Below, in pieces: positions 44,213 to 48,429 of a stretch of DNA of 64,000 nt. Both the position numbers and the translations under genes were made by a program. The notes below the pieces were generated by a model. That model ran no database searches. It was given only the letters and a program-made list of their open reading frames with translations, and was not told the origin of the DNA. The stretch lies in contig JAETNR010000001.1 of assembly GCA_021772055.1 (NCBI GenBank), forward strand, positions 1 to 64,000, given 5' to 3'. This DNA comes from Blautia sp. GTDB taxonomy: Bacteria > Bacillota > Clostridia > Lachnospirales > Lachnospiraceae. How positions within the stretch are numbered: position 1 is the stretch's first letter; each line of letters opens with the position of its first letter.

Positions 44213-44286
44213 GCAATGAAAGCGAGGAATACAGGACAAGAAGGAGCTTATGTTAGACTGGGAAAAAAGCGAAAGGGCGGATGTTC

Positions 44287-45585
44287 ATGGGCAAAAAAAG
44301 ACGGAATTTTTTGATACAGTATGTTTCCCTGGCATTAGGCGCTATTGTTTTTCTGGGAAGCGGTCTGACGAAAGCGGCAGCATATGGGGCAGAGCTGGCG
44401 GCGGTCTCTACAGAACAGGAAGTGATCACAGAGGAGAGCTGTTATTCCGAGAGAACGGATGAGGAAGTAGAAAGGACTCTTTTGAACCGGCAGCTTACAG
44501 ATTTTTCAGTAAGGCTTTTTCAGCAGACGTTGAAGAATGACGGAAACACTTTAATTTCTCCTTATTCCATTGTCAGCGCACTTTCCATGACCGCAAACGG
44601 CGCTTCAGGAAATACATTGTCAAAGATGGAAGAAGTTCTGGGCGTATCCTCGGAAGAACTGAAGGAATATTTATACGCCATGGAAGCAGGCTTTGCCTCC
44701 GATGAAGAGAAGGCTCTTCTGACAGCGAATTCCCTTTGGCTTAAGGAAGAGGATTCCCTTCAGTTTCAGCCTGATTTTCTAAAGACAGCAAAAGAATGGT
44801 ACGATGCAGAAGCTGCATCCGTTCCCATGGATGCAGCTACATTACAGAGAATCAATCACTGGGTAAACGAAAAAACGGACGGCATGATTCCGGAAATTCT
44901 GGATGAGATTCCAAAGGATGCAGTCATGTATCTGATCAATGCCCTTGCCTTTCACGGAGCATGGGAGGAGGAATATCCGGAAAGTGCAGTTTCCAAAGGC
45001 ACATTTACCAGGGAAGACGGGAGTACGCAGGAAGCGGATATGATGTATTCAGAGGAGTCTGCGTATCTGGAGGATGAGGGTGCGTTTGGTTTTTTGAAAA
45101 ACTATAAGAATGGGAAATATGCATTTGCGGCTCTCCTTCCGGATGAGGGAACCACTGTGGAAGAGTATGTGAAGAGCCTTACTGGAGAACGGCTTTATCA
45201 GGTATTATCCAATGTGCAGTCAGAAAGCATTGACGCAGCGATTCCCTGCTTTCAGGCAGAATATTCCATAGAGTTATCCGATTCCTTAAAAGAACTTGGA
45301 ATGGAGGAAGCTTTTTCCCCGAAGGATGCGGATTTTTCCAAAATGTGTGTCTCCGAAAAAGGAAATATTTATATTGGCAGAGTGCTGCATAAAACCTATA
45401 TTGATGTAAATCCGAAAGGAACAGAAGCCGCCGCGGCAACAGCAGTAGAAATGCTGGAAGAATGTGCACTGGAGCCGGTTCCGATGAAAATCATACACCT
45501 GGATCGTCCTTTTGTATATTTTCTCATTGACCTGGAATCCGGATTTCCCCTATTCATGGGAACAGTTCATACATTGGAATCATAA
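44287..45585 (+). CDS. Secreted serpin-family protease inhibitor
   Basis: A 432-residue protein. A hydrophobic N-terminal signal (FLIQYVSLALGAIVFLGSGLTKAAA) is followed by a complete serpin fold: FSVRLFQQTLKNDGNTLISPYSIVSALSMTANGASGNTLSKMEEVLG, INHWVNEKTDGMIPEIL, ALAFHGAWEEEY, and the hinge KGTEAAAATAVEM near residue 377, then DRPFVYFLIDLESGFPLFMGTV. The Ala-rich hinge is that of inhibitory serpins. The reactive-site loop between MLEEC and RPF has no obvious Arg P1. It should trap host or microbial serine or cysteine proteases outside the cell. The ATG at 44287 is preferred to 44281 because AAGGG lies better spaced. An AAGGAG-led ATG at 44250 opens a different, overlapping frame. Confidence 0.9.
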   Translation: MGKKRRNFLIQYVSLALGAIVFLGSGLTKAAAYGAELAAVSTEQEVITEESCYSERTDEEVERTLLNRQLTDFSVRLFQQTLKNDGNTLISPYSIVSALSMTANGASGNTLSKMEEVLGVSSEELKEYLYAMEAGFASDEEKALLTANSLWLKEEDSLQFQPDFLKTAKEWYDAEAASVPMDAATLQRINHWVNEKTDGMIPEILDEIPKDAVMYLINALAFHGAWEEEYPESAVSKGTFTREDGSTQEADMMYSEESAYLEDEGAFGFLKNYKNGKYAFAALLPDEGTTVEEYVKSLTGERLYQVLSNVQSESIDAAIPCFQAEYSIELSDSLKELGMEEAFSPKDADFSKMCVSEKGNIYIGRVLHKTYIDVNPKGTEAAAATAVEMLEECALEPVPMKIIHLDRPFVYFLIDLESGFPLFMGTVHTLES

Positions 45586-47421: not shown

Positions 47422-47514
47422 ATTATGGAGATAAGATAGTCAGAATTGGAAAAGCAGTCCGCCCAAAAAGAAGCTATACTATATTTACCACGTGGAAAAC
47501 AGGAGTGATCGGTG

Positions 47515-48429
47515 ATGAAAACACAAAACTGGATTCGGAAAAGTCTGCAATATATAGATGATCATCTGGAAGGTCCCTTATCTGTAAAAGAAATTGCTTT
47601 ATGGACAGGATATTCGGAGGCTTATTTCTCCAGGCAGTTCAGGAAGACAATGGACATGCCGGTAATGGACTATGTAAAGCGCAGAAAGCTCCTTCGGGCT
47701 GCCAAAGAAATCTGCAGCGGGCAAAAGGTGCTGGATGCGGCAATCCGCTTTGGATGGGAATCTCACAGCGGCTTTACCAGGGCTTTTAAAAAGGAATTCG
47801 GCTTTACGCCTGCACTCCTTCAGGCAATGAAAATCAGTATGGACAGTCTTGGAGGGAAAAATATGGGAGGGCTTTTTTTGAAGAATATGGATGAACATGC
47901 CACAAAAGAAAATTTATTCGATGCGCTGAATAATGAAATGGTCTTTATAGATGGAAGCAGGGACAAAAAACTGCTGAAGATCTGCTATGATTATGCAGTG
48001 GAACTGCATAGGGGAAAAGTACGGTACTCCGGTGATGAGTACATTACCCATCCGTTACATGTGGCTTTGATTCTGGCTCAGCTTGAAACGGATATTCATG
48101 TGATTTGCGCAGGTTTATTCTGCGTTGCCTGGGAGGTGACGGAAATAAGCCCCGGGGAACTGGAGGAGCGGCTTCCGCGCAAGGTGGCTTCCCTTGTGGA
48201 AAAACTTAAGGTAAGCAGCCGGGAGCTTACAGCGCTTGAGGATGAAGATGTGCTGCTGATCAAACTGGCACAGCACCTTCACAACATGCGTACAATTGAT
48301 TTTTTGTCAGAGAATGCCAGAGCCCGTCACGCAAAAGAAACTCTGGAGGTGTTTGTGCCATTATGCCGGAAACTGGGGATTCCCCAGATGGTGGATGAAT
48401 TTGATTATCTGGCAGGAAAATATTACTGA
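47515..48429 (+). CDS. AraC-type HTH fused to a degenerate RelA/SpoT-like HD hydrolase domain
   Basis: A 304-residue fusion. Residues about 5-105 are an AraC/XylS double HTH (LSVKEIALWTGYSEAYFSRQFRK, VLDAAIRFGWESHSGFTRAFKKEFGFTPALL). Residues about 148-304 follow the (p)ppGpp hydrolase fold of RelA/SpoT proteins: YITHPLHVALILAQLETDIHVICAGLF, IKLAQHLHNMRT, AKETLEVFVPLCRKLGIPQMVDEFDYLAGKYY. Canonical metal ligands are changed: the HD pair of LLHDVVEDT is Phe-Cys here (F202, C203), and the Asp of KLADRLHNMRT is Gln (Q253); only His179 remains. It probably binds rather than cleaves its ligand. ATG 47515 has AGGAG nine bases upstream. The gene stands alone just after the MITE-like element. Confidence 0.85.
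   Translation: MKTQNWIRKSLQYIDDHLEGPLSVKEIALWTGYSEAYFSRQFRKTMDMPVMDYVKRRKLLRAAKEICSGQKVLDAAIRFGWESHSGFTRAFKKEFGFTPALLQAMKISMDSLGGKNMGGLFLKNMDEHATKENLFDALNNEMVFIDGSRDKKLLKICYDYAVELHRGKVRYSGDEYITHPLHVALILAQLETDIHVICAGLFCVAWEVTEISPGELEERLPRKVASLVEKLKVSSRELTALEDEDVLLIKLAQHLHNMRTIDFLSENARARHAKETLEVFVPLCRKLGIPQMVDEFDYLAGKYY

Follow-up and report, generated by a model that had tools for sequence, protein, structure and literature searches.

According to the available text of a 2021 review, ppGpp does not directly bind or regulate RNA polymerase in Firmicutes, and PurR of Bacillus was apparently the first DNA-binding transcription factor placed under direct ppGpp binding, with more such paradigms expected (PMC9304144; see also PMC8789054). 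By analogy, PurR is the closest known system in its way of working to the protein described here: both come from Firmicutes and join a DNA-binding domain to an enzyme-like domain which binds ppGpp, or in the present case would bind it, in the conserved pocket of its fold. In construction they differ, PurR combining a winged helix with a phosphoribosyltransferase fold and the present protein an AraC domain with the alarmone hydrolase itself. Moreover, ppGpp binding was shown for PurR, whereas here it is pocket conservation that points to it.

Among the enzymes of the hydrolase fold, the long RSHs (Rel/SpoT/RelA) share with the fusion the fold, the point at which the domain ends and the pocket residues. 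In contrast, the fusion is devoid of the synthetase and further RSH domains, has lost the catalytic Asp, has a shortened alpha6/alpha7 region and carries an AraC domain in front. Escherichia coli RelA also contains an inactive RSH hydrolase domain (PMC8012599, partial text), but it has lost the pocket residues too and regulates a synthetase instead of DNA binding. The small alarmone hydrolases MESH1 and RelH consist of the HD-only RSH fold, but they are stand-alone enzymes, and long RSHs ranked first for the fusion in sequence and structure searches. Neither AraC nor helix-turn-helix is mentioned in the available main text of the 2011 RSH survey (PMC3153485), and, among the papers listed in searches of open-licence PubMed Central, none referred to an AraC-RSH fusion in its title or abstract start. 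The novelty would lie in an AraC regulator that uses an RSH pseudo-hydrolase for sensing. The window referred to below is the whole 64,000-nucleotide stretch of DNA that was analysed.

An AraC domain fused to an RSH hydrolase fold

The open reading frame encodes 304 amino acids comprising an AraC domain and an RSH (p)ppGpp-hydrolase domain (Table 1), a combination which the earlier note had proposed and which was borne out by the profile matches. The front half matched PF12833 (4e-18) and PF00165 (3.7e-12) above the Pfam cut-off, and the double helix-turn-helix of about 100 residues typical of AraC/XylS proteins was recovered by Pfam, by the model helices and by the fold matches. Its nearest AraC models in NCBIfam were SoxS, Rob and RamA, by which it is classed as being of the MarA/SoxS/Rob type. 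The rear half matched HD_4 (PF13328, 2e-23) and, locally, TIGR00691 (spoT_relA) over residues 158-296 (7.9e-32), its C-terminal end coinciding with the point where the RSH synthetase would start. The TIGR00691 match reached 110.4 bits over profile positions 2-157 of 687, below the more than 499.2 bits across the whole protein required of a full-length Rel. The top sequence relatives of solved structure were N-terminal catalytic fragments of Rel (4.2e-24). These domain matches are far above chance, and the fusion is real.

The AF2 model, built from 16 sequences, had a mean pLDDT of 83.8 and a pTM of 0.59, so the relative placing of the AraC and RSH halves is not fixed by it. The RSH fold suspected earlier from sequence patterns was recovered in a Foldseek search, in which Rel structures came first: T. 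thermophilus Rel 6s2v (3.1e-08) and 6s2u, with AMP and ppGpp (35% identity, rmsd 2.2). The other half matched AraC-type structures such as 3oio and 7w5w. Furthermore, the stretch from the HD motif to the last ligand was about 19 residues shorter than in RSHs in the alignments, in the alpha6/alpha7 region.

Table 1. Features of the fusion gene and its promoter in the window
Feature	Coordinates	Strand	Basis
Upstream box TCAGAATTGGAAAAG (family GCA-N5-GGAANAG), possible binding site of the AraC domain covering the -35 region	47440..47454	+	Pattern from family promoters
TATACTA, -10-like box at a fixed distance from the upstream box	47475..47481	+	Pattern from family promoters
TACCACGTGG, contains a palindrome, close to where transcription is expected to start	47486..47495	+	Pattern from family promoters
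AraC-RSH fusion gene	47515..48429	+	ORF, Pfam, NCBIfam; alternative start GTG at 47512
AraC-type double helix-turn-helix DNA-binding domain, residues 5-105	47527..47829	+	Pfam, NCBIfam and solved-structure matches; helices in AF2 model
Linker, residues 106-147	47830..47955	+	AF2 model, pLDDT <50 at 112-122
RSH pseudo-hydrolase domain, residues 148-304	47956..48426	+	Pfam, TIGR00691, solved relatives, alignments, Foldseek
RYSGDEYITH: Arg170, Ser172 (RelSeq Arg44, Ser46) and sole metal ligand His179 (His53) kept	48022..48051	+	Alignment; roles from PMC13299517 (partial text)
CVAWEVT replacing HDxxEDT: His77>Cys203, Asp78>Val204, Glu81=Glu207, Asp82>Val208	48121..48141	+	Alignments
KLAQHLHNMRT: Asp144>Gln253; Asn257, Thr260 (RelSeq Asn148, Thr151) kept	48262..48294	+	Alignment; roles from PMC13299517 (partial text)

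Conservation of the pocket and loss of catalytic residues

In RelSeq, whose numbering is used for the family, Mn is held by His53, His77 and Asp144, with Asp78 released towards it, and the guanine nucleotide is contacted by Arg44 and Asn148 and, via the main chain, by Ser46 and Thr151 (PMC13299517, partial text). The four metal ligands of RSHs (His, His-Asp, Asp) are represented in the window protein by His, Cys, Val and Gln. Thus the earlier note was right that one ligand of four remains (His179) and that the later Asp has become Gln, but its reading of the HD pair as Phe-Cys was off by one residue: the pair is Cys203-Val204, and Phe202 aligns with the Leu preceding the His. The catalytic Glu-Asp is Glu207-Val208, and the pocket residues corresponding to Arg44, Ser46, Asn148 and Thr151 are all present.

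Across the family, a total of 23 fusions were compared with 30 RSHs, these counts leaving out L060 (internal stop) and the truncated L075 and L076 and including both L066 and L002, identical in the aligned part, and the near copies L062/L063 and L073/L098. The four pocket positions were canonical in 92 of 92 cells in the fusions and in 119 of 120 in the RSHs; this conservation of the nucleotide pocket had been put forward earlier as a check. The four metal positions were canonical in 56 of 92 cells against 120 of 120, and Glu81/Asp82 in 6 of 46 against 60 of 60. At the metal positions, HCDE was found in 13 fusions and HHDD in six, followed by HCDQ, HCVQ (the window protein), HWDG and HSEG in one each. 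The fusion itself is kept in the relatives, and the expectation that homologues would share the ligand loss held for most of them, but not for the six of 23 that retain all four ligands; this speaks in part against the idea, relatives with an intact HD site having been named beforehand as a refutation, although none of the six has the catalytic Asp. Position 82, which by numbering and the HDxxED spacing would correspond to Asp66 of MESH1, was Asp in 0 of 23 fusions, with Lys in 17, Met and Trp in two each, and Val and Leu in one each. Human MESH1 D66K, described as lacking catalytic activity, has been crystallised with NADPH (PMC9894426, partial text) and, according to the title of structure 9chy, with PAPS.

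Moreover, 14 of the 68 columns near-invariant in 45 RSHs were kept by all 23 fusions, and these 14 include His53 and the four pocket sites. When changes were counted by parsimony along the fusion tree, none fell on the pocket sites, against an average of 6.7 for the 143 columns; 16 of these columns were unchanged, and Glu81, with 12 changes, was among the fastest. Arg44 and Asn148 are stronger evidence than Ser46 and Thr151, since the latter two make contact through the main chain. E. coli RelA, with its dead hydrolase domain, aligned with none of the four pocket residues, as a single sequence with a poor alignment near Arg44.

Distribution and evolution of the fusions

Matches to the fusion appeared in 22 of 397 same-family genomes (E<=1e-28), including the window's own genome and broken copies (L060 with its internal stop, L075 and L076 partial). 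The named full-length relatives were from Clostridium sp. E02 (45%; NCBI label Clostridiaceae) and Murimonas intestini (39%; Lachnospiraceae). Wider samples yielded the fusion in two of 391 genomes of the class and four of 295 of the order, all in the window's family, and in one of 64 of the genus, the own genome only. In a profile search, 16 of 378 phylum genomes had matches at 1e-45. The own genome had the only fusion; the remaining matches began no earlier than profile position 119 and fell in frames of about 720-780 residues, which identifies them as RSHs. No fusion was found outside the window's family in the class, order and phylum samples, each searched with one query or profile and a few best candidates scored per genome, and divergent fusions elsewhere could be missed. 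Plasmid sequences gave no megablast match to the fusion. A contaminant contig was also considered, as the source genome (G000) lists 5.6% contamination and the 63 other same-genus genomes were without the fusion, but G000 has a single copy of the leuS gene found in the window, a slight indication from which the contig was provisionally treated as the genome's own.

In the tree, built with 14 of the 30 RSH rows and not including E. coli RelA, the fusions formed one clade against the RSHs (support 100/99), with the window protein on a long branch. The metal-intact members (the clade L071-L073, L097 and L098, then L068, whose placement had a support of 84/76) appear to branch first, and one state change suffices; this rooting is unsure, and the program warns of two long branches joining here, the metal-intact clade and the RSHs. 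For the HD half, dN/dS was 0.14 in L062/L063, the one usable metal-lost pair (metal-lost L064/L067 being saturated), and 0.09 and 0.14 in L071/L072 and L073/L097, both metal-intact. These values, similar to those of the AraC half in the usable pairs, indicate purifying selection on the HD half. L073/L098 gave about 0.36 on five non-synonymous and four synonymous changes, a pair too close to judge.

A separate RSH match was found in all 22 fusion genomes, 21 of them over the cut-off, while in the remaining genome the match begins at the end of a contig. These cells should therefore have the signal, and its hydrolysis is taken care of elsewhere. The fusion genome G067 had two full-length Rel genes, both scoring above the family cut-off (C62:52989-55055 and C76:39794-41929). 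Furthermore, seven of the 22 genomes (G380, G108, G409, G106, G209, G420 and G313) had frames of 189-218 amino acids whose match to the Rel model was confined to its hydrolase part; these are probably small alarmone hydrolases.

A composite promoter upstream of the fusion gene

The three promoter elements of Table 1 were combined into one pattern, GCA-N5-GGAANAG-N20-TATANTA-N4-TACCACGTGG, allowing up to three mismatches, in which TACCACGTGG sits 19 bases before the ATG of the fusion gene. This promoter lies outside the span covered by the earlier note and is absent from it. The composite was found in 16 of the 22 fusion genomes, in one copy each and always directly upstream of the fusion gene, with no match for the reversed control. 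As it was derived from the same promoters, it matches there by construction, and the information lies in its having no other occurrence in those genomes. Of the six fusion genomes without it at this threshold, four showed parts by eye. Among 358 same-family genomes, it was present in 17 (reversed control, one), 14 of which were fusion genomes. In G074 and G150, it was followed by an AraC-like start with 43-44 aligned residues and then the contig end, the last codon in G074 reading as a stop; in G175, a short and weak AraC remnant of 12 residues followed (E 0.23). In L166 (about 2264-2390), the composite promoter precedes an apparent short AraC-gene remnant.

For the independent loci whose match is confined to the AraC half (L003-L016 and L018-L025), the composite was found in 10 of 22 (L003-L012), once each and upstream of the AraC gene, and was missing from the other 12 and from the RSH locus L017. 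The AraC half of these ten clostridial regulators is 38-43% identical to that of the fusion and all ten share its composite promoter, but their sensor is Cass2/GyrI-like, by Pfam in L003 and L008 and by a similar reading in the other eight, L005 being cut by a contig end. The composite was absent from L014, whose sensor reads similarly, and from L015, which gave a GyrI-like hit. Being present with differing sensors and missing in L014 and L015, the element therefore tracks a subgroup of the AraC half and not the sensor. Autoregulation would be the simplest reading of this distribution. The composite promoter is common to AraC regulators with quite different sensors, and the palindrome near the start site is strongly conserved. 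TACCACGTGG does occur in the literature and, among the matches listed, none concerned such a promoter by its title.

No conserved neighbour emerged when the 23 loci were clustered: the fusion appeared in 23 and the next cluster in only four, in a set with some short loci and with one fusion and gene order common to L002 and L087. Promoter-pattern scans revealed no regulon beyond the fusion gene itself. In its own genome, the -10 box plus palindrome matched two places versus six for the reversed control, and the upstream box plus -10 box matched 32 versus nine, 30 of these 32 with two mismatches. One of the 32, upstream of a short AraC ORF (L164, 2585-2890), is not claimed. Elsewhere in the window, the gene at 44281-45585 (plus strand), which precedes the ABC-F gene, is by its motif a putative serpin (protease inhibitor).

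Discussion

The reading to which we lean, if only just, is that of an autoregulated AraC regulator whose sensor would have been exchanged for a pseudo-hydrolase reading (p)ppGpp or a related nucleotide. In AraC/MarA proteins, activation results when the AraC domain sits over the -35 region. Here, the AraC half would occupy the GCA-N5-GGAANAG box at that position in its own promoter, plus other targets, and the start-site element may bind a second copy of the regulator or another protein. The (p)ppGpp supplied by the Rel of the same cell would switch the regulator by binding to the pseudo-hydrolase, whose kept guanine pocket (Arg170, Ser172, Asn257 and Thr260) would accommodate it or a close guanine nucleotide, and this binding would alter DNA binding or activation. 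As the catalytic Asp is lost, together with the metal site in most members, the nucleotide would be bound without being destroyed. Points against this reading are the six fusions with all metal ligands, the lack of a conserved neighbour or a wider regulon in the searches above, the ratio of L073/L098 and the long branch of the window protein. A further difficulty comes from Acinetobacter baumannii SpoT, in which the active site without Mn2+ is disordered and the guanine loop is incompatible with guanine coordination (PMC9974481, partial text), so the metal-less pocket of the fusions may not bind. Either the fusions would stabilise this loop otherwise, for which Tyr45 (19/23) and the acidic residue 49 (22/23) are family features that might serve, or the ligand would differ.

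The latter case, the same architecture with another purine ligand such as (p)ppApp, NADPH, PAPS or GTP/GDP in place of (p)ppGpp, is unlikely but a genuine contender. In the alpha2/alpha3 loop, Lys45 is changed in all 23 fusions and Pro49 is replaced by an acidic residue in 22, so the specificity may differ, and the alpha6/alpha7 region is shortened in or near the positions of the SpoT loops that help hold the phosphates (PMC9974481, partial text). Moreover, MESH1, of the same fold, takes NADPH (PMC9894426, partial text) and PAPS (title of 9chy). However, the residues kept in the fusions are among those that hold guanine in RelSeq (PMC13299517, partial text). That the RSH domain acts only as a ligand-free scaffold for dimerisation or folding seems improbable: the inactive hydrolase domain of E. 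coli RelA does regulate its neighbour domain (PMC8012599, partial text), but the pocket residues lost there are kept in the fusions, and the complete lack of changes at the pocket sites would be left unexplained.

Quite improbable is a re-tooled site at which His, Cys, Asp and Glu would hold another metal, for metal or redox sensing or a new hydrolase activity. These four residues are all able to bind metal and stand together at the ligand positions of 13 of the 23 fusions, but HCVQ (window), HWDG, HSEG, HCDQ and HHDD also occur, so this can hardly be the function common to the family, and Asp82 is gone throughout. Decay without selection is scarcely credible, for although Glu81 is among the fastest columns, the window protein sits on a long branch and broken or truncated copies occur (L060, L075, L076 and G175), the HD half has a dN/dS of about 0.1 in the usable pairs, one of them metal-lost, like the AraC half, and 16 of 143 columns are invariant.

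For the preferred reading, of a nucleotide-sensing regulator, a fuller history of the family can be drawn, to which we give somewhat less than an even chance. In it, the enzyme that destroys the alarmone would itself have become the sensor of a family of dedicated alarmone-responsive transcription factors. In an ancestral fusion the catalytic Asp would have been replaced, often by Lys, and most lines would later have given up the metal, with the guanine pocket frozen; the pseudo-hydrolase would have taken the place held elsewhere by a GyrI-like sensor, behind an AraC domain that regulates its own gene, wiring the stringent response directly to a promoter. If true, this would be a second, differently built ppGpp-regulated factor and would show the passage of a second-messenger enzyme to a receptor, in a clade where metal-intact members survive alongside metal-lost ones. 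Furthermore, the idea can be put to the test by joining a reporter to the conserved promoter element, from which an alarmone biosensor could be developed.
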